Below are positions 681-38,813 of a stretch of DNA of 64,000 nucleotides, piece by piece (position 1 is the first letter of the stretch; each line of letters begins with the position of its first letter). Source of the stretch: Hyphomicrobiales bacterium. GTDB lineage: Bacteria > Pseudomonadota > Alphaproteobacteria > SPJN01. Location: the NCBI GenBank assembly GCA_006844605.1, contig SPJN01000002.1, positions 80,337-144,336 of the forward strand, written 5' to 3'. A model generated the notes under the pieces. The model made no database searches, was not told the origin of the DNA, and saw nothing but the letters and a program-made list of their open reading frames with translations. The position numbers and the translations under genes were made by a program.

Positions 681-1958
681 TTACGGCGCGACCTGACCAA
701 TGATCAGGTCAAGCGGTGTGCCTGTTGGCCCTGTGCCGCCCGTGCCGGGTGTTGTCAACGAGTTCAAGATGTTGACCAGATTGTCCTGAAGGTTGCTGTT
801 CTGCGCCCCATCACCCAGCAACAGGGTTTGCAGGTCCGCTTGTATGTTCGTGCCGCCGCCTTGCAAATCGGCCAATGTTGTGGCCAGCACATGTGTGCTG
901 GGGTCCGGATTGCTTAAATCGGCGGCTAACAGTGTCAGCGCACTGGTCAGATTGTTGGACAGATCGGTTTGATCATTGCTGCCATCAGCATTGGTATCGC
1001 CAGCGCCCAGCGCATCGGTTGTGTTATCAGCTGACCCGACAATGGTTTTGTTTGACGGGCCGGGGTTGCCTGTACCACCACCAGTAAGCGCACCAACGAC
1101 AGGGCCGACCACAACGTCAAGTGGTGTACCTGTCGGTCCTGCGCCATTTCCTGCGCCATCAGGCGTTGTCAGCCCTTCGACAATGTTCTGTAGGTCTGTT
1201 GCCAGATCATTGTCATTGGGCCCGCCAACCAGCAGGTTTTGCAAATCGGCCTGTAAGTCATCGCCGCCGCCCTGCAAATCAGCCAATGTCGTTGCCAAAA
1301 CATGCGTTTCGGTATTCGCATTGGTCAATTCCAGCACCAAAATAGTAAGGGCCAGTTGCAAGTTGGTTGTCAGATCAGTTTGATCATTATCGCCATCACC
1401 GTCGATGTCGCCAGCCCCGGCAAAATCGGTCGTGTCATTGAGTGAACCGACGATGGTCCGTTCGCCCTGACCCGGCGGGGGGGTGTCGGTGCCAAGAAGG
1501 ACGCCGGCGACCGGATCAATTACGACATCAAGGGGCGTGCCCGTTGTGCCGCCTGTGCCGCTGCCATCAGGTGTTGTCAGGCCAGCAAGAATATTTTGCA
1601 GGTCGGTTGCCAGATCATTGTTCAGGGGCGCTTCGCCAACCAGCAAACGTTGCAGATCAGCCTGTAGCCCAGCGCCGCCGTCCTGAAGGTCCGCCAGCGT
1701 TCTGGCAAGGACGTGATTTTCAACATCTGCATTTGTCAGCTCTGCCAGCAGGACAGTCACAGCCAGTTGCAAATTGTTGCTTAGGTCGGTTTGATCATTG
1801 TCGCCGTCACGATCAGTGTCGCCGGCGCCCGCATTGTCAGCGGTGCTGTCCAACGACCCAACAATCGTCCGGTTGCCGCCTGCCGGCGGCGTCGTGCCAT
1901 CATCGCTAAGGCCAAGTGCGTCCGCAACGGGATCAATCACAACATCCAGCGGTGTGCC
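681..1958 (-). repeat. Three tandem coding repeats plus a partial fourth
   Basis: Units start at about 1958, 1541, 1130 and 722 on the minus strand, giving periods of 417, 411 and 408 bases. The last unit is cut after about 13 residues by the stop codon. The units are diverged in DNA sequence but keep GTPLD, the TIVGS strand, the Asp-rich loop, THVLATTLADLQ-type and LQADLQ segments in the same order, so they arose by internal duplication of coding sequence. Confidence 0.85.
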
Positions 1959-2972
1959 AGTGGTGCCTGCGCCTGTGCCGTCATCCTCGCCAGCCAACGC
2001 GCTGGGATCTGTGGGGATGCCAACCTGTTGGGCGGGGGCGCCATCTTGCACAAGGTCAACGATAACAGCGTTGAAGCCATCATTTTGAAATGCTTCTGGA
2101 CCAAGGTTCAGGATGACCAGATTATCCGGCTCTTCGGTTTCGGCCATGCCCGCCGGTGTGCCTGATGAGGCAAGGTTGGCAACGCCCTGATCACTTAGGG
2201 GGCCAAATGTGCCATCACCGGGTTCGTCATCATCCAGAACTTCCAAAACGGTCAGGGTCATGCCTGCTTCATTGCCGTTTTCATCCGTCACAAGATTGTC
2301 CGCAAGATTGATGCCGACCACTGGCCGACCGTCTGTGTTCGGGTTTTCTGCGGGCGTGCCAGCGGAAACTTGAACCAAGCTGTCCGGTGCGTCTGATGTG
2401 CCAAAATTTTGCAAGCTGGCAACATCACCCACGGTTACCGCAGCAACTGATTGACCCACAACCGGCAATACGCTGGGAATGATGGGATCTTTCGGTGATT
2501 TGTGTTCGGCTTCTGCACCGATCAGGCGGCAGCGCTGATTTTCCAGATTGCTGTTCAGGCCGGATTCATCTTCCTGTTCCAAGGACAAGGTACAGCCCAT
2601 AACCCCTGCCGTCAGCGGCAGGCTGGTAACCGGGGCCTGATCAATTTGATCGGAAGAGGGTAAGTAGGCTGAGCCTGAAGTGTTGCCATTAGTTGTTGGC
2701 ATGGCGCTCATCGTGCCGTTCAAAAACGCTTCCATATCCGCGTCGCTGACAGTGCCGGGCGTGGTGGTTGTGCGCGCGGCAGGCGTCGCAGCAGGTGCGG
2801 GCGCCGTGCTTTGTGCCGGGGCGTTGTTGCCATAGAACATGTCCCAATCAGATTGGCTGATGTTGTCCTGCGCCTGTGCAGCAAAACTGCCGCTGACCAA
2901 CAGCAAGCCTGCTGCCAATGCGCCTGTTGAAATACTGTTCTTCAATTGCCCGAATGTGTTTGTGCGCGGCAT
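681..2972 (-). CDS. Secreted protein with three long internal repeats and Asp-rich loops
   Basis: Unrecognised exported protein of about 763 aa. The ATG at 2972 is preferred over one 20 codons upstream because a TGGAGGT ribosome site lies just before it and a clean signal peptide follows (basic start, hydrophobic core, AQA cleavage motif near residue 35). A Pro/Ala/Thr-rich linker leads to a Cys-containing segment around residues 120-150. From residue 339 a unit of 136-139 aa repeats three times and the start of a fourth (GTPLD at 339, 478, 615, 751) forms the C terminus. Each unit carries an Asp/Asn-rich loop such as GDTDRDGDNDQTD, resembling calcium loops of dockerin or thrombospondin type 3, then a helical LADLQ...LQADLQ segment. 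No sorting signal or transmembrane anchor is seen. A surface or extracellular structural role is an inference. Confidence 0.75.
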   Translation of the reverse strand: MPRTNTFGQLKNSISTGALAAGLLLVSGSFAAQAQDNISQSDWDMFYGNNAPAQSTAPAPAATPAARTTTTPGTVSDADMEAFLNGTMSAMPTTNGNTSGSAYLPSSDQIDQAPVTSLPLTAGVMGCTLSLEQEDESGLNSNLENQRCRLIGAEAEHKSPKDPIIPSVLPVVGQSVAAVTVGDVASLQNFGTSDAPDSLVQVSAGTPAENPNTDGRPVVGINLADNLVTDENGNEAGMTLTVLEVLDDDEPGDGTFGPLSDQGVANLASSGTPAGMAETEEPDNLVILNLGPEAFQNDGFNAVIVDLVQDGAPAQQVGIPTDPSALAGEDDGTGAGTTGTPLDVVIDPVADALGLSDDGTTPPAGGNRTIVGSLDSTADNAGAGDTDRDGDNDQTDLSNNLQLAVTVLLAELTNADVENHVLARTLADLQDGGAGLQADLQRLLVGEAPLNNDLATDLQNILAGLTTPDGSGTGGTTGTPLDVVIDPVAGVLLGTDTPPPGQGERTIVGSLNDTTDFAGAGDIDGDGDNDQTDLTTNLQLALTILVLELTNANTETHVLATTLADLQGGGDDLQADLQNLLVGGPNDNDLATDLQNIVEGLTTPDGAGNGAGPTGTPLDVVVGPVVGALTGGGTGNPGPSNKTIVGSADNTTDALGAGDTNADGSNDQTDLSNNLTSALTLLAADLSNPDPSTHVLATTLADLQGGGTNIQADLQTLLLGDGAQNSNLQDNLVNILNSLTTPGTGGTGPTGTPLDLIIGQVAP

Positions 2973-3095
2973 GGTGCGACTACCTCCAACTATAGTTACC
3001 AATATCTTAATGGGCTTATATATCTGCAGCAAATCAAATTACCCGCAGATTGGGGCATTTCTGTGATTAACGGGTTGTGATGGCGGCGGCTTTTT

Positions 3096-10454: not shown

Positions 10455-10970
10455 ATGTCGAAGTTCTTTTCGAAAAAACTGGCAACAGCGGGCGCAGCAT
10501 TTGCGGTTGGCGCGGTTGGCCTGACAGCCCCCGGCGCGTTTGCCGGTTCGGGCAATGATTCATTTTCGGTCACAGCGAATGTTGTGGATACTTGCACAAT
10601 TTCTGCCGCTGATATGGCGTTCGGTGATTATGACCCCCTGTCGGTAACACCGACGGTTGGGACATCTAACCTGACTGTATCATGTACGTTGTTGGCCCCT
10701 TATACGATTGAGCTTGATGCCGGTGTTGGCGATAGCGCGACGACAACAGCACGTCAGATGGAAAATGCAGGTGGTGACCAGCTGGAATATTCCATCTTCC
10801 AAGACGTAACACACTTGCTGTTGTGGGGGCTGGCTATTGACACGCTCGAAGTGAGCGGCATTGGGACCGGCCTGCCAGTCCCCACCACCATGTTTGGACA
10901 AATCGTTGCAAACCAACAGGTTGCTTCAGGTGCCTATTCAGACACCGTTACTGCAACGATTAATTTCTGA
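10455..10970 (+). CDS. Spore coat U (SCPU) domain pilin-like subunit
   Basis: An exported 171-aa protein with signal peptide (AFA cleavage site near residue 30) and an SCPU domain: paired Cys, FGDYDP motif, beta-rich body and a C-terminal beta strand (DTVTATINF) of the donor-strand type. SCPU proteins are subunits of archaic chaperone-usher fibres, not spore proteins, outside Myxococcus. It heads the operon ahead of chaperone and usher and is followed by its own terminator, which would make it the most abundant product and so the likely main shaft subunit. GGAGT lies upstream of the ATG. Confidence 0.88.
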   Translation: MSKFFSKKLATAGAAFAVGAVGLTAPGAFAGSGNDSFSVTANVVDTCTISAADMAFGDYDPLSVTPTVGTSNLTVSCTLLAPYTIELDAGVGDSATTTARQMENAGGDQLEYSIFQDVTHLLLWGLAIDTLEVSGIGTGLPVPTTMFGQIVANQQVASGAYSDTVTATINF

Positions 10971-10990
10971 TCCGCCAACGGTCTGAAGTT

Positions 10991-11016
10991 GCCCCACCTT
11001 ATGGGTGGGGCTTTTT
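10991..11016 (+). terminator. Attenuating terminator between major subunit and chaperone genes
   Basis: An eight-base-pair G/C stem (GCCCCACC with GGTGGGGC) followed by five T. It sits between the first SCPU gene and the chaperone gene, where partial termination would set subunit excess over assembly proteins. Confidence 0.8.
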
Positions 11017-11059
11017 CAGGCCCGCCGCACTATGGTTAATCAGCGATAAGGAAAAGGTT

Positions 11060-11833
11060 ATGAGTATTTGGTCTCACGCTTGGTTGAAAGCCGCTGCGAT
11101 CGCGGTCGTGACGATCCTGATCAGTAGCTGGGCGCGCGCCGCCGCGCCAGTGCAGGTTACGCCGGTGCAATATGTCATCGACAAGGGCCGTCCAATCGTT
11201 TCGATGACCATCAAAAGCAGCGGCGATGAACGACAATTATTTCAGGTGGACTTGCGTGAATGGCATGTCGTTGACGGCACAGCCACGCTGACACCGGTAC
11301 AGAGCGGCATGATCGTTACCCCGCCTGTGTTTGAGATCAAGGGTGGTGAAACGCAGATCGTGCGCCTTGGGTTGACAGGCCCTGTCGACACAAGTGCACA
11401 GGAAAAGACCTGGCGTGTGATCCTGCGTGATATTTCACCCAAGCCTGAGGCCGGTGGCTCAACAATGTTTGTGCGTATGAATATTTCAATGCCGGTATTC
11501 TTACCTGCCGATAACCCCCAACCGATTAACGTCGCCACAACTGCCACATGGCAGGACGATAGAAGCATTAAGATTTCGTGCGAAAATAATTCAAACCGTC
11601 ATGGTCATATTGTTGATGCAACGCTGCTTGATGCCAATGGTGATGCCATCGTCAGTCGCAACCTGTCGCATTATGTCTTGCCGCAAGAGCGGAACGAAAC
11701 CTTGCTGACGATTCCCACAGAAGATGATGAGCAAACGCAGGCTTTGCGACAGGCCACCCATATCAGCCTGACCGTTCGCAATCATGTGTCGAAAGAGGTT
11801 ACTGATCTTGTTGTGCCGCTGGGCCACAAATAG
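11060..11833 (+). CDS. Periplasmic pilus chaperone (PapD-like, archaic type)
   Basis: A 257-aa exported chaperone with a signal peptide ending near ARA (about residue 27) and two immunoglobulin-like domains. The first shows P-x-VTP-VQYVID and the strand ending GGETQIVRLGL that contributes the donor strand to subunits; the F1-G1 region precedes the Arg-rich KTWRVILRDI strand. It caps SCPU subunits in the periplasm and hands them to the usher. The usher frame begins inside its last 50 bases, so the two are translationally coupled. Confidence 0.88.
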   Translation: MSIWSHAWLKAAAIAVVTILISSWARAAAPVQVTPVQYVIDKGRPIVSMTIKSSGDERQLFQVDLREWHVVDGTATLTPVQSGMIVTPPVFEIKGGETQIVRLGLTGPVDTSAQEKTWRVILRDISPKPEAGGSTMFVRMNISMPVFLPADNPQPINVATTATWQDDRSIKISCENNSNRHGHIVDATLLDANGDAIVSRNLSHYVLPQERNETLLTIPTEDDEQTQALRQATHISLTVRNHVSKEVTDLVVPLGHK

Positions 11834-14258
11834 GGGCCTATGGTCCGTTGTAGCTGCCATGGTGATGTTTGGCGGCACTTTCGCCGCCGCGCAAGAGCAA
11901 GGCGGCGAAAGGCCTGTGCGCGAAGACTGGCAGGTTATGGCGTTGCTTGAAGAAGGGGCAGACCAATTGCCGCCTGATGAATTGGCGGCCTTTTGGGGCA
12001 ATGATGTGCCCGATGACAAGTCGCTTTTATTGGGCGGGCCGGAAAGTTTATTGTTGTCATTTGCAGTGAACGGCACATCGCTTAATTATTTTGATCTTGT
12101 CTATGTCACCCGCGATGGCCGCGCCTATGTGCGCGGTGATGTGCTTGAATCCATGCGGATTGTACCGCCCCCTGCTGGGCGCTTGCCAAAGGGTGTGGTG
12201 GCAGGGTTTCACCCCATTCATCTGGTGCCCGGTCTTGTCTATGAAATTGACCGTCAGGCCCTGCAACTTGATATCGCCTGTGCGGCGGCCTGTTTCAAAA
12301 TCACTGAGCTGTCGGCGCGCTATACAGCCATAACGGCAACGCCAACCCAGATCGGTAATGGCGGCTTTGTGAATTATGATGCCAATGTCGAATATCGTGA
12401 TTTCGACTTTGATATTACCAGTCTGTTTGAGGTTGGATATTTTGACGAGCATGGCTCCTTCCTGACGACATTTGCAGCACAGGATTTGGCCAACAGCGCC
12501 ACGGCCCTGCGGTTGGAAACCAGCTTCACCATTGATGATCAGGCGCAGCGACGCAGGCTTGTGTTGGGGGATTCGATTTCCCGCAACGCGGTGTGGAGCC
12601 AACCCGTCCGCTTTGCTGGCGTGCGCTATGGAAATGAATTTTCTATGACCCCCGGATTTGTCAGCCTGCCATCACCTGATTTCGCGGGCGAGGCAGCCTT
12701 GCCATCCACCATCGATGTGTTTGTTGATGGCGTGCGGCGCTTTACATCTGAGGTTCCCGCCGGACCTTATCAGGTGCGCGATCTGCCTGTGTTAAGCGGT
12801 ACGGGCGAGGCGCAGATCATCGTGCGTGATGTGTTGGGGCGCGAACAGGTTTATACAGAATCTTATGCGTTGGGGCGGGCAATGTTACGCCCGGGTCTGT
12901 CTGACTGGTCAATCTCTGCAGGTGTGTTGCGCGAAGATTTTGCCGTCCGCTCCGGCACATATGGAGACGGGTTTGTTGATGCGATTTATGCGCAGGGCAT
13001 ATCCACCGAATTGACGGTCGAAATGCAGGGGCAGTTGTCTTCTGATGTCGGTAGCGCAGGGGCCGGTGTTACCTATGCCAAGCCGGGCTTTGGCGTGTTC
13101 AGCCTGGCAGCGGCTTTGTCCAAAACCGATGAGGATATGGGAAGTTATCTTGGTGCCGGGTGGGACTGGTCCTATGGGGCGGTGTCGTTTTCAACCAATA
13201 TTGAAACAGCCAGTGCGCCGTTCAGGGCCTTGGGGCAGGACTTGACCCGCGATGCAGATAAATATCGGTGGCGCGTGCGCGGCGGTGTGCGGATCGGTGA
13301 TGGCAATCTATCTGCCAGCTATGTCGATCTGAAAAGGCGCGGGCGGTCGGATTTCCGCTCTATCAGTTTGGGGCTGACGACCCGGTTGTCCCGGCGTTTT
13401 TCTGTATCGGTCAATGGTTTTCGCCAGATAAAGCCAACCCGGTCTGATACGGTGTTGCTGTCTGTGTCCGCTGCATTCGGTGCCGGACGGGTTGGCGGCC
13501 TGTCTGCAAAAAAGGACAGGGCAGGCCAATATAGCATCTCAGCCTCTGTGCAGGAATCAGCACCGGTAGAAGGTGGCTTCGGCTATCGGCTGCGCGTTGG
13601 GCAGGATGACAAGGCGCGCTTTTCCGACGGCACGTTAAGTTATCGTGGTGACATTATTGAAAGTTCAATTGGCTGGTCTGATGCGCAGCGTCAAACACAA
13701 TTGCGCGGTACGGCACGCGGCGGCTTGGTGATGGCCGATGGTCACGTGCGATTGTCTCGCTATGTCACGTCCAGTTTTGCGATTGTCGATGTTGCAGATA
13801 TTGAAGGTGTGCGTGTTTATGCCGACCGCAGATTGGCTGGTCGGACCGGCGCTGGCGGAACAATTGCTGTTACCCAGTTGCGCCCGTGGGAAAAGAATGT
13901 GATCAGCATCGAAGGGGCCGACTTGCCACTGGATTGGCCCGTCACACAATTTGATTACGATATTGTTCCCGCAAATCGCACAGGGCATTTCCTGAAGATT
14001 GAAGGCAGCGTTGGCCGATCCGCCGTGATGAGCTTGCGTTTGGTGGATGGCACCAGCCCCCCGGTGGGTGCGCGCATCACATTCGATGATAGTGAAGATA
14101 CCTATTTTGTGGGTGAGGAGGGGTATTCCTTCGTCGCAAGTTTACCGCAGACCACATCCGTAACGGTAGCGTGGCCCAACGGGTCGTGTCAGGCGCAGCT
14201 TTCATTGCCAGCCAATGATGTGCCGCAAATCATGTTGGGAGAGGTGATATGTCGTTAG
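11784..14258 (+). CDS. Outer-membrane usher of an SCPU chaperone-usher pilus
   Basis: An 824-aa usher that secretes and orders chaperone-delivered subunits. After a signal peptide (cleavage near AAA-Q, about residue 37) come the N-terminal chaperone-binding domain, the beta-barrel with the plug region around the PSTIDVFVDG strand, and a C-terminal beta domain with a terminal Cys pair (GSCQAQL...GEVICR). No good ribosome site is seen at the ATG 11784, which overlaps the chaperone gene by 50 bases; later Met codons would remove the signal peptide. It overlaps the next gene by 10 bases. Confidence 0.9.
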   Translation: MCRKRLLILLCRWATNRGLWSVVAAMVMFGGTFAAAQEQGGERPVREDWQVMALLEEGADQLPPDELAAFWGNDVPDDKSLLLGGPESLLLSFAVNGTSLNYFDLVYVTRDGRAYVRGDVLESMRIVPPPAGRLPKGVVAGFHPIHLVPGLVYEIDRQALQLDIACAAACFKITELSARYTAITATPTQIGNGGFVNYDANVEYRDFDFDITSLFEVGYFDEHGSFLTTFAAQDLANSATALRLETSFTIDDQAQRRRLVLGDSISRNAVWSQPVRFAGVRYGNEFSMTPGFVSLPSPDFAGEAALPSTIDVFVDGVRRFTSEVPAGPYQVRDLPVLSGTGEAQIIVRDVLGREQVYTESYALGRAMLRPGLSDWSISAGVLREDFAVRSGTYGDGFVDAIYAQGISTELTVEMQGQLSSDVGSAGAGVTYAKPGFGVFSLAAALSKTDEDMGSYLGAGWDWSYGAVSFSTNIETASAPFRALGQDLTRDADKYRWRVRGGVRIGDGNLSASYVDLKRRGRSDFRSISLGLTTRLSRRFSVSVNGFRQIKPTRSDTVLLSVSAAFGAGRVGGLSAKKDRAGQYSISASVQESAPVEGGFGYRLRVGQDDKARFSDGTLSYRGDIIESSIGWSDAQRQTQLRGTARGGLVMADGHVRLSRYVTSSFAIVDVADIEGVRVYADRRLAGRTGAGGTIAVTQLRPWEKNVISIEGADLPLDWPVTQFDYDIVPANRTGHFLKIEGSVGRSAVMSLRLVDGTSPPVGARITFDDSEDTYFVGEEGYSFVASLPQTTSVTVAWPNGSCQAQLSLPANDVPQIMLGEVICR

Positions 14259-14752
14259 GCCGTTTTCTTGTTGTAGGATTGTTTGCCTTGCTGGCCTCAA
14301 TGTTTTGGGCTGATCGGGCGAATGCCACATGTACGGCATTGGGCTGTAGTTGCGGTGTCAGCGTTGGCACAATGTCGTTCGGGACTTATGACCCGCAAGA
14401 CCTTTCACCGCATGATGGGGTGGGAACCGTCACAGTGACCTGCACCGCATTGTTACTGGGTGGCGAGGTGGCCTATGAGATCGACATTGATCAGGGGTCT
14501 GCAGGCAGTTTCAGTCCCCGTACACTAGAAAATGGTGGCGACACGGTGGACTATAATCTGTTCGCAGATTCAGGGCGCACCCAGATTTGGGGTGATGGCG
14601 GCGGCGGAACGGTCACGGTATCTGATGGTTATTCATTTTTGTTGGGATTGGTGATCATCCGAAACTACACCCTTTACGGACGGATCCCGGCAAGCCAAAT
14701 TGTGCCGTCCGGCAGTTATGACGATACGCTGACCGTTACCGTGACGTTCTAA
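14249..14752 (+). CDS. Second SCPU-domain subunit (possible tip/minor pilin)
   Basis: An exported 167-aa SCPU protein with signal peptide (ANA cleavage near residue 27), CTALGCSCGV Cys cluster and MSFGTYDPQD motif matching the first subunit, and a C-terminal DTLTVTVTF strand. GGGAG precedes the ATG, which overlaps the usher end, so its level is tied to the usher. The extra Cys and position after the usher suggest a minor or tip subunit, but this is inference. Confidence 0.87.
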   Translation: MSLGRFLVVGLFALLASMFWADRANATCTALGCSCGVSVGTMSFGTYDPQDLSPHDGVGTVTVTCTALLLGGEVAYEIDIDQGSAGSFSPRTLENGGDTVDYNLFADSGRTQIWGDGGGGTVTVSDGYSFLLGLVIIRNYTLYGRIPASQIVPSGSYDDTLTVTVTF

Positions 14753-22960: not shown

Positions 22961-23000
22961 GCCCGGTTGTGAATCTGTCGTAACCGGGCAGCGCGTTTTT
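22961..23000 (+). terminator. Terminator after peroxiredoxin gene
   Basis: GCCCGGTT (22961-22968) and AACCGGGC (22982-22989) form a perfect 8-base-pair stem, followed by AGCGCG and five T. It ends at the stop codon of the convergent gene. Confidence 0.65.
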
Positions 23001-23496
23001 AGTCGTCAGTTTTAAGACGCGTCACAACAGCGGCGCGCATTTCGGCGGTCACCGCCAACAGCTCGTCCAGCTCCTGCAACAAGATGGGCGCTTCTTTTTC
23101 GTCGATGTCATTGTCATCTTCCAAAAAGGTATGGCTTCGCGCGAATACTTCGCCTGCTTCCTTGCCGATCTTTGTCAGATGCAGGGTCCATTCATAGTCA
23201 ACTTCTGCTTCAGGCAATCGCAGGATCAGGCAATTTTGCGCCGCTGCCAAAAATTCGGTGACGGGCATCGCGCCGGTCGCCTTTTCAAGCTGCGAGACCA
23301 CATCAATAGGCATGTGGGTTTTTTCGTGATTGGGATTGGCATAATCTGACAGCATGGATTTGCCGACACGGCATTTTTCGGCTGCTGCCTTTTCGCCACC
23401 TGCAGCGCCGATCAGTGCTGCAACCGCAGCCTTGATGGACCCATAGTCACGCGGAAAGAATGAATGAATGCGTGTCTGCTTGGTATCGCGTGCCAT
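22999..23496 (-). CDS. Small putative DNA-binding protein (phage CII/XRE-like)
   Basis: A 165-aa protein I cannot name. Residues about 19-80 look like a helix-turn-helix of the phage-regulator kind (Ala-rich helices, KCRVGKSMLSDYANP turn region, then IDVVSQLEKATG). The rest is acidic and helical, ending in a Leu/Glu-rich helix. GGGAGG precedes the ATG. There are no phage genes around it, so it is more likely a resident regulator than a prophage remnant. Confidence 0.65.
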   Translation of the reverse strand: MARDTKQTRIHSFFPRDYGSIKAAVAALIGAAGGEKAAAEKCRVGKSMLSDYANPNHEKTHMPIDVVSQLEKATGAMPVTEFLAAAQNCLILRLPEAEVDYEWTLHLTKIGKEAGEVFARSHTFLEDDNDIDEKEAPILLQELDELLAVTAEMRAAVVTRLKTDD

Positions 23497-28760: not shown

Positions 28761-30113
28761 ATGCGCTATTTGCCCCTAACTGATGATGACCGCCGTGCAA
28801 TGCTTGCCACGATTGGTGTCCGTTCCGTCGATGACCTGTTCATTGATGTGCCTGATGCAGCACGGCTTGACGATCTGATTGATCTGCCACGCCATCAGGG
28901 CGAATTGGCAGTGGAACGGGATATGTCAGGACTGGCAGCACAATCTGTTGCTGCCGGATCTGTGCCGTTCTTTTGTGGGGCTGGGGCCTATCGGCATCAT
29001 GTGCCAGCCACCGTTGATCATTTGATTCAACGGTCTGAGTTTTTGACGGCCTATACCCCCTATCAGCCCGAAATCGCGCAAGGCACGTTGCAGTATTTGT
29101 ACGAGTTTCAAAGTCAGGTTGCCCTGCTGACCGGGATGGAGGTCGCGAACGCGTCGCTTTATGACGGATCAACCGGTACGGCTGAAGCTGTGATCATGGC
29201 AAACCGCGTCACGCGCCGTAAAAAGGCTGTGTTGTCTGGCGCGCTTCACCCCCATTACGCACAGGTTGTTAAAACCACCTTGCAATATGACGGATCTGAA
29301 ATTGTTGAAGCACCATTGGTAAGTGACGGACAAGAATCACTTGCCGACATGATCGACGACAAGACGTCATGCGTTGTGGTCCAAACACCCGACCTGTTCG
29401 GGCACTTGCACGATTATGCGGCGCTGGCTGATGCCGCCCATGCAAAGGGTGCCTTGCTGATCATCGTGGTGACGGAAATCGTCTCGCTTGGCGCGTTGAA
29501 GTCGCCCGGCGATATGGGCGCCGACATCGTTGTGGCCGAAGGGCAGTCACTGGGTGTTGGGTTGCAATTTGGAGGCCCCTATGTGGGGTTGTTCGCCACA
29601 AGACAAAAACTTGTGCGTCAAATGCCGGGCCGTGTGGCGGGTGAAACGCGTGATGCCGCTGGCAAGCGTGGCTATGTGCTGACGCTTTCAACGCGGGAAC
29701 AGCATATTCGCCGGGAAAAGGCGACCAGTAATATTTGTACGAATGCCGGGCTTTGTTCCTTGGCTTTTTCCATCCACTTGTCGTTATTGGGGGAAAGCGG
29801 GTTGCAGAAATTGGCTGCGCTTAATCACGCGATGGCAAGTCGGGCCGCAGACCGTTTGGCCACCATCCCCGGCGTGACAGTGCTGAACGACACATTTTTT
29901 AACGAGTTCACATTGCAGCTGCCCGTGGCAGCCGCACCGGTTGTTGATCAATTGGCGCAGCAAAACATCATCGCAGGCGTGCCTGTCAGCCGTTTGGTGC
30001 CGGGACAGGCCGAAGACCTGTTGCTGGTCGCGGTGACAGAAACCACAACTGATGAAGATGTAGAGGCGCTGGCAAGAGCCTTGTCCGCGATTGTAGAAGG
30101 AGCGTCATCATGA
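28761..30113 (+). CDS. gcvPA: Glycine dehydrogenase (decarboxylating) subunit 1
   Basis: N-terminal half of the P protein as a separate 450-aa subunit. It opens with [15 protein letters not shown], the typical start of subunit 1, and contains the [18 protein letters not shown] segment and [13 protein letters not shown]. It pairs with GcvPB to decarboxylate glycine with PLP. Its stop overlaps the gcvPB start by four bases (ATGA), so subunits are made in step. Confidence 0.96.
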
Positions 30114-31693
30114 TGAACAAGCAGGGGCGCCCCACAAATACAGGCGACGCAGGCGATACAGGCAGCGCCGCACGAATTGAAACCGCGACAGGTCATTATG
30201 GCTTGGATCACAATGAACCGCTGATCTTTGAACAGGGCGTGCCAGGCCGTAGCGGCGTTGATTTGCCCGAAATACCAGATGCTCCCAGCCGTCTTGGCGG
30301 GCTTGCGCGGGCTGACCAGATCGGCCTGCCCGACCTGACCGAACCTGACGTGATGCGCCACTATGTGCGCCTGTCACGCAAGAATTATGCCATTGATATG
30401 GGGCTGTTCCCACTTGGCTCCTGCACGATGAAGCACAATCCGCGCCTGAATGAAAAGATGGCGCGGCAACCCGGCTTTTTTGATGTGCATCCCTTGCAGC
30501 CCGAAAGCACTATACAGGGTGCGCTGGCAGTAATGGATGAACTGACCCATTGGTTGACGACGCTGACCGGGATGCCCGCCGTGGCGTTGAGCCCCAAGGC
30601 AGGGGCCCATGGTGAATTCTGCGGGATGATGGCCATTCGTGCGGCACATGAAGCTGCGGGTGAGGGCGCAACACGTACCCGCGTGCTGGTGCCGGAAAGT
30701 GCCCACGGCACGAACCCCGCAACCGCCGCGCAATTGGGCCTGAAAGTTGATTCGATCCCCGCGACCGAAGAAGGGCGCGTTGACCTTGAAGCCTTCCGGG
30801 CCAAGCTTGGCCCCGATGTGGCAGGCATCATGCTGACCAACCCCAATACATGCGGGTTGTTTGAACGTGATATTCGCGCGATTGCCGATGCCATTCACGA
30901 TGTCGGCGGCTATTTCTATTGCGATGGTGCGAACTTCAACGCCATCGTTGGCCGTGTCCGCCCCGGTGATCTGGGCGTCGATGCGATGCATATCAATTTG
31001 CACAAGACATTCTCAACCCCGCATGGCGGCGGCGGGCCCGGTGCCGGGCCAGTGGTCCTGTCGGAAGCCTTGGCCCCCTTTGCGCCCCACCCGTGGGTAG
31101 TGGGCGATAAGGACGGGTTGCATTTGGTGGAGCATGATGGCGATCAGGGCGATGACGCCCCAGCCTTTGGCCGCCTGACGGCATTCCACGGGCAGATGGG
31201 CATGTATTCCCGCGCCCTGACCTATATGAAAAGTCACGGCACAGACGGGTTGCGGCAGGTTGCAGAGGATTCTGTGCTGTCGGCCAACTATGTGCTGGCC
31301 CGCCTGAAGGATCATATGTCCGCCCCGTTTGAAGGTCCCTGTATGCATGAGGCCCTGTTTGATGACCGCTTCTTGGAAGGGACAGGGGTGACAACTTTGG
31401 ACTTTGCCAAGGCAATGATCGACGAGGGCTTTCACCCCATGACCATGTATTTCCCCTTGGTTGTTCATGGCGCCATGCTGATTGAACCGACTGAGACGGA
31501 AAGCAAGCAAAGCCTGGATATCTTCTGCGATTCACTGTTGGCATTGGCTGAGGGCGCAAAGGGCAATGATAAGGAACGGTTCACTGCCGCGCCGCATTTT
31601 GCCCCGACAGGTCGTCTGGACGAGACATTGGCAGCCCGTAAGCCGAACCTGCGCTGGTCAGTGGCACAGAAGCCGCTGGAGGCTGCCGAATAG
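30110..31693 (+). CDS. gcvPB: Glycine dehydrogenase (decarboxylating) subunit 2
   Basis: PLP-binding half of P protein, 527 aa. The Schiff-base Lys is Lys299 in [32 protein letters not shown] and [10 protein letters not shown] are also family hallmarks. The first 25 or so residues, rich in Gly/Thr/Asp, are extra to the usual start; an in-frame later start cannot be ruled out but the ATGA overlap with gcvPA supports this one. No clear terminator follows. Confidence 0.95.
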
Positions 31694-38300: not shown

Positions 38301-38813
38301 GATCCCGGCAGCTTCTTCAAGGATGGAACGGCGGTCCTTCGGTTTGGCAGAAATCAAGGCACCGACGCGGCCCTGACTGACCAAGGCGGGGGAGTGGGCC
38401 CCGGTTGAACTGTCTGCAAATAAAAGCTGCACATCACGGGCGCGCACATCATTGCCATTGATCCGATAGCCGGACCCGGCACCCCGTTCGATACGGCGCG
38501 TGATTTCAAGGTCGTCGCTGTCATTGAACGCGGCGGGGGCTGTGCGATCCGAATTGCCAAGCGCCAATGTCACCTCGGCCATGTTGCGGGCCGGACGATT
38601 TGTAGTGCCGGAAAAGATTACATCTTCCATGCCTGTGCCGCGCATCGATTTGGGGCTGGTTTCCCCCATCGCCCAACGCAGGGCTTCCACAAGGTTGGAC
38701 TTGCCGCAACCATTCGGGCCGATCACACCGGTCAGGCCCGGTTCGATCAACAATTCGGTCGGTTCGACAAAGCTCTTAAATCCACTTAGCCGTAGGGCAT
38801 TGAATTCAACCAT
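35349..38813 (-). CDS. smc: Chromosome segregation protein SMC
   Basis: A 1154-aa SMC ATPase that organises and separates chromosomes with ScpA/ScpB. Walker A is GPNGCGKSN (33-41); two long coiled coils flank a hinge at about residues 500-670; the C-terminal head has LSGGEQALTALAL and Walker B VLDEVDAPLDD. Length and layout are normal. Follows the DsbA-like and DciA-like genes, a known alphaproteobacterial neighbourhood. Confidence 0.97.
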   Translation of the reverse strand: MVEFNALRLSGFKSFVEPTELLIEPGLTGVIGPNGCGKSNLVEALRWAMGETSPKSMRGTGMEDVIFSGTTNRPARNMAEVTLALGNSDRTAPAAFNDSDDLEITRRIERGAGSGYRINGNDVRARDVQLLFADSSTGAHSPALVSQGRVGALISAKPKDRRSILEEAAGITGLHSRRHEAELRLRAAETNLTRLDDVMAQIETQLGSLKRQARQANRYRNLQGHIRRHEALLLHLKWTEARLQVEESRAKLKKTEAEVATATQAAAEAARVEALAQHGLPPLREKEAEMAAALHRLSVERDGLAKEEERARQKMAELEGQLTQIDTDLEREGTLAKDAASALERLDAEKETLDGARAGEADRIAEAQAAVTQAQETLRTDEDALHVLTERAAALAARRSGFEREIRETGGRLERLVAQLSSIEEEKAKIERELREDEALAAARTRLAESEAALTAAQEAQIAAEEATRTAEQSESAARDRMNEARNVAHRIKAEEQALTNLLDTGSAGDYPPMVDELSVEPGYEKALGAALGDDLDVSFDPDAPAHWAKLGEYADNALLPDGVVPLSDFVKAPAALKRRLSHIGLVEDRADGGRLHGLLKPGQRIVTRDGDLWRWDGLTSAADAPSAAAKRLEQRNRLSDLIMEREVAERTAEDATKNHDGQKQVLDAAKAADQNTRKARRSAEDNLSNARRKLAEFEQVEAKRQTRLQSLTENAERLTQDRTDSESRLAEAKEGLGRLEPQETLDGEISAKRTHVDSLRAGLAEARSNQSGLQQEAQARATRLSTISRERQAWVDRSGNSIKQIEALNNRKKNALAQQEELHNLPEHLKSKRTLLLDKIGEAEQNRRDSADKLAEAESLLAEAGKWARAVNEALGTHREDRAKISGHLEGAEERLGDSAARIHEVLQCPPQKALELAELKEGETPPPANDVEDKLEKLKRERENMGAVNLRAEEESRELTEQLEGMEAEKADLEGAIARLRGGIQSLNKEGRERLLTAFESVNEKFTRLFGILFGGGTAHLELIESDDPLSAGLEIYASPPGKKLQVMTLLSGGEQALTALALIFAVFLTNPSPICVLDEVDAPLDDANVERFTNLVETIAKETGTRFLIITHHAVTMARMHRLFGVTMAERGVSQLVSVSLEHAEEMIAAE

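Follow-up and report, generated by a model that had tools for sequence, protein, structure and literature searches.

A repeat protein with a signal-peptide-like start, three calcium-type Asp-rich loops and a closing segment shared with a second protein in a Hyphomicrobiales bacterium

In this study, we have explored a stretch of DNA of 64,000 nucleotides from a Hyphomicrobiales bacterium (the window), in which the open reading frame at 681 to 2972, on the reverse strand and including the stop codon, encodes an acidic repeat protein of 763 residues; its coordinates and strand were checked and are correct. The ATG at 2972 stands 9 nt after a likely ribosome-binding site, GGAGGT (2982 to 2987, reverse strand), and a longer frame from a TTG at 3032 was set aside as mechanical. 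Nine bases separate the gene from the end of a meaB-like GTPase gene, which it faces; a ScfR/RamB-like regulator gene lies upstream on the same strand, and an isocitrate lyase gene follows on the opposite strand. The five best plasmid matches listed for this isocitrate lyase come from alphaproteobacterial genera (among them Sphingomonas at 77.8% and Sinorhizobium at about 74%), a hint at the class. This metabolic neighbourhood offers no functional clue.

The first 34 residues (2871 to 2972, reverse strand) form a signal-peptide-like start, which by inspection is probably of the Sec type and cut after AQA. This agrees with the first-pass annotation, which had taken the protein to be secreted. 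Residues 35 to 338 (1959 to 2870, reverse strand) make up an N-terminal region consisting of a Pro/Ala/Thr-rich linker and an acidic part, with no family match, and contain the sole cysteines of the protein, Cys127 and Cys148. By eye only, SQSDWDMFYGN and SDADMEAFLNG (at about 2715 to 2860 of the window, reverse strand) resemble copies of one motif with Pro/Ala/Thr linker between them. The whole protein is strongly acidic, with 14 Lys and Arg against 104 Asp and Glu, a computed pI of 4.05 for the mature form and a net charge of -54 over residues 342 to 763.

The rest of the protein is a repeat array. The repeat alignment delimits, all on the reverse strand, unit 1 (residues 339 to 477, 139 aa; 1542 to 1958), unit 2 (residues 478 to 614, 137 aa; 1131 to 1541) and unit 3 (residues 615 to 750, 136 aa; 723 to 1130), the second being 72% and the third 59% identical to the first. 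At an offset of 137 the array is identical to itself at 141 of 288 positions, while none of 2000 shuffles gave a self-identity above 56 at offsets between 100 and 179; the three repeats of 136 to 139 aa that had been proposed are thus in register far beyond what shuffling gives. Each unit divides into two parts. The first is a GTPLD segment and its Gly/Pro-rich joint; the second, a domain, begins near TIVGS, runs through the loop GAGDxDxDGxNDQTDL and goes on as predicted helices. The units are evenly kept: hydrophobic positions are conserved and indels are few. Comparison of the units gives pS of 0.70-0.78 and pN of only 0.19-0.30, with dN/dS of 0.11 for units 1 and 2 and 0.14 for units 2 and 3 (dS is saturated for units 1 and 3). 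Low pN against pS, a dN/dS of about 0.1 and near-saturated synonymous sites together mean that the copies are old and that selection has preserved them at the protein level.

GTPLD occurs at residues 339, 478, 615 and 751, so that there are n+1 segments, four for three domains. The closing one (residues 751 to 763; 684 to 722, reverse strand, from the repeat alignment) brings the protein to its C-terminal end, GTPLDLIIGQVAP. When the array is phased as a domain plus the segment that follows it, three full units result and the array ends exactly at the stop codon. Based on this phasing and on the n+1 count, we prefer to see a closing segment in what had been described as a truncated fourth copy: only one GTPLD segment is present there, and a unit profile recovers three copies, no more, from the organism's own genome.

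Apart from its own gene, the whole repeat protein matched the same genome at a single place (E 3.1e-4), the end of an exported protein of 199 aa (G000:C45:64971-65567; L020:1501-2100). This second carrier has its own signal-peptide-like start, a hydrophobic stretch, six Asp and seven Gly, followed by TTGTPLDAVLDPVAGALGGGVPASPI; it is probably membrane-anchored and is otherwise unrelated to the repeat protein. A profile of the repeat protein's four segments alone scores the second carrier at E 1.5e-9 (2000 sequences). This match carries a large composition-bias term of 16.7 bits, its flank being Gly-rich, though the core TTGTPLDxVxDPVAGAL lies outside the glycine run. A five-segment profile, built from all five rows that it recovered, found five places only in the genome up to E 10, four in the repeat protein and one in the second carrier. 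As a DNA pattern, GTPLD has nine sites in the genome, five of which encode GTPLD; the other four encode GTPFD and were dropped by their letters (one of them, C11:118814, falls in the window near 38478). The longer pattern GTPLDxxxDPV, searched as DNA, was found in none of 384 other genomes of the class, and the word GTPLD was not found in a literature search. Against 366 other genomes of the class, the 199-aa protein gave three matches at E 0.001. Two of these (G340 and G227, E about 2e-4; the G227 match is flagged for a TGA) are laid out alike, from signal peptide through body to hydrophobic stretch, and, weak as the matches are, look like true relatives. The third (G050), which falls within a long protein, looks like chance. 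Since the frames in G340 and G227 end without GTPLD, the segment appears, from these two weak relatives, to be a terminal addition to the 199-aa protein in this genome. The second carrier adjoins genes that by eye encode a UbiA-like membrane protein and an enzyme of Cys/Met metabolism.

Each of the three units carries one loop of the type Dx[DN]xDGxNDQTD. On the reverse strand and from the repeat alignment, these are loop 1, DTDRDGDNDQTD (residues 385 to 396; 1785 to 1820), loop 2, DIDGDGDNDQTD (residues 522 to 533; 1374 to 1409) and loop 3, DTNADGSNDQTD (residues 659 to 670; 963 to 998). The pattern D.[DN].[DN]G..D..[DE] occurs three times and in register, whereas among 20,000 shuffles of the repeat region it occurred three times in none and at least once in 107. 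Asp stands at loop positions 1, 5, 9 and 12 in all copies, and loop 3 has Asn at position 3 and Ser at position 7. As a sequence pattern, therefore, the calcium-like loop claimed for each unit is borne out in 3/3 units. In PMC3123361, the Dx[DN]xDG motif is described as binding calcium in many unrelated settings, as a convergent site across diverse families. The loops here share that linear pattern, extended by Asp at positions 9 and 12 and likewise found in an exported protein; the motif, being convergent, is silent on ancestry. Read from its sequence, the repeat protein may bind calcium through these loops.

In a Dockerin type I domain, two loop-helix motifs span about 60 residues at most, and a canonical EF-hand loop has a hydrophobic residue (Ile, Val or Leu) at position 8. 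Both are like the repeat unit in that an Asp loop leads directly into a helix (here a predicted one); they differ in that the unit is 136 to 139 aa long, has one loop rather than a pair, and has Asn at loop position 8. All three loops carry acidic or amide residues at the EF-hand ligand positions 1, 3, 5, 9 and 12, but all three have Asn at position 8, and with no profile match in addition we rejected EF-hand membership. Dockerin membership was likewise rejected: there is a single loop per 137 residues, and the Dockerin type I profile (PF00404) matched nothing in the protein at E 1 and, at E 10, nothing in the units or the own genome (the genome search, run as a control, matched 9 of 14 genomes). 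The spacing DxDxDGxxDxxD is common to the loops and to Thrombospondin type 3 repeats (PF02412), but here the loops lie 137 residues apart with predicted helices after each. On this wide spacing, and with no match in the Pfam-A scans of the protein and the units (scan filters can drop weak matches), this family was also rejected.

The only Pfam match was to Pex19 (PF04614), a eukaryotic peroxisomal receptor, at 24.7 bits against a gathering cut-off of 22.2. It covers residues 674 to 747 in unit 3, that is 74 residues aligned to profile positions 64 to 120 (57 of 249), and when the isolated units were compared with Pex19 up to E 10, two of three matched, with a best E of 0.024. Formally this touches on the strong match to a named domain that would speak against an unrecognised family. 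The match is short and not found in all copies, and we judge it spurious and driven by composition, though it stands above the curators' cut-off. No family for the repeat protein was found in NCBIfam or PHROGs. Across Pfam, NCBIfam and PHROGs no named domain fits, which agrees with the first-pass annotation, where the family was not recognised.

The search for relatives was similarly sparse. The whole repeat protein matched none of 57 other genomes, and the unit profile matched none of 387 other genomes drawn from the phylum and one of 384 drawn from the class, two draws that overlap. This one match (G372, E 2.5e-4) is antisense to a gene that we take to be secB and was rejected. The N-terminal region matched one of 366 other genomes of the class (G188, E 4.6e-4), where the protein matched is short, exported and Ala/Pro-rich at its start, with a vaguely similar two-cysteine stretch; we took this match as compositional. 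The own genome is the sole one of its order among the genomes searched, and these absences accordingly say little on close relatives. Four collections, from which records near the own genome may be absent, yielded no relatives: genome and viral contigs searched with the unit alignment, viral contigs searched also with the whole repeat protein and the GTPLD alignment, plasmids and phages. Genome contigs searched with the neighbouring regulator gave no named locus of equal gene order. Solved structures gave no match to the repeat protein at E 1, and three profile matches up to E 10, at E 0.15 to 8.1 (RPN8 twice, a phage DNA stabilization protein) were rejected as chance. The protein is thus an orphan within what could be searched, and the unit is probably a domain not described before, with a calcium-type loop of a widespread, convergent kind.

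Two structure predictions, with alignments one to three sequences deep, reached mean pLDDT of 37.6 and 37.1. In both models a helix begins at or soon after the loop in each modelled copy, with two or three more after it and none before, where paired EF-hands have a helix on either side of each loop, at a confidence (mean about 37) far too low for a fold; any fold of the unit is therefore given here as a tentative suggestion. The LADLQ and LQADLQ segments had been called amphipathic. As good a helical moment arises in 10-30% of shuffles of the former and 47-82% of the latter, neither being beyond shuffles, and in 0.5-2.2% for the DLATDLQNIL stretch in its three copies, so that the description clearly stands for this one of four helices only.

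Based on these results, we put at about an even chance that this is an exported acidic envelope protein made of three calcium-stabilised helical modules and a docking segment in common with the second carrier. Calcium in each loop would fix or cap the start of the following helix and stiffen the domain, and three stiffened domains could make up a short rod or spacer, stabilised by calcium and placed in the periplasm or on the cell. The GTPLD segments may pack between the helical domains or against a common partner, as a docking segment, which would explain both the n+1 segments and the second carrier. Against the calcium modules stand the non-canonical Asn at position 8, the departures of loop 3 at positions 3 and 7 and the pLDDT near 37; against the shared segment stands the large bias term in the match to the second carrier.

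The low pLDDT throughout could also be taken at face value, the protein being an acidic, extended or disordered envelope protein whose Asp loops bind ions or water loosely, with no folded calcium-dependent domain. Its richness in Gly, Thr and Asp and the scarcity of Lys and Arg beside Asp and Glu would fit. However, a pLDDT near 37 is what an alignment of one to three sequences leads one to expect, because homologues are missing, and the length of the units, the constraint on them, their conserved hydrophobic positions and the scarcity of indels argue against disorder, which we regard as unlikely. We hold it somewhat less likely again that the loop forms a metal-free structural turn, EF-hand-like by descent or by chance, as position 8 and the weaker third loop might suggest, for the Asp at 1, 5, 9 and 12 are kept in 3/3 copies while synonymous sites are near saturation. 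On a par with this in improbability is a calcium-dependent adhesin or S-layer-type protein, whose repeats would hold out a binding tip or assemble into an extracellular lattice: the protein is exported, acidic, built from repeats and furnished with calcium-type loops, but it matches no named adhesin or S-layer repeat family (Pfam, NCBIfam, PHROGs), its N-terminal region has no family match, no binding-tip domain is recognised in it or elsewhere, and a secretin search of the 92%-complete own genome, where an assembly gap is possible, found none (the same search matched 6 of 14 control genomes).

Surface export by a secretin route is thus not in evidence, and nothing found here points to the adhesion or surface layer that had been suggested. 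C-terminal sorting tags of the LPXTG or PEP-CTERM type consist of a motif, a membrane helix and then basic residues at the end; the end of the repeat protein has no such tag.

Returning to the calcium-stabilised modules with a docking segment, the shared GTPLD segment is the part of the find most worth attention. In a bolder form, to which we give still less credence than to the alternatives above, GTPLD would be a new docking module that completes or links the calcium-loop domains of the repeat protein, the probably membrane-anchored 199-aa protein would plug into the same site, and the calcium-ordered domains would tether the repeat protein to the membrane. If GTPLD is a docking element, the two proteins would make a simple two-protein envelope tether; if not, the repeat protein is one more lineage-restricted acidic repeat protein.

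Elsewhere in the window, an SCPU-type chaperone-usher cluster lies at 10455 to 14752 on the forward strand, comprising an SCPU protein, a PapD-type chaperone, an usher and a second SCPU protein. A protein encoded at 22999 to 23496 on the reverse strand matches Phage_CP76, a CII-like regulator (E 2.1e-10). Finally, the glycine cleavage P-protein is encoded at 28761 to 31693 on the forward strand by two adjacent, overlapping genes, a split form that is well known.
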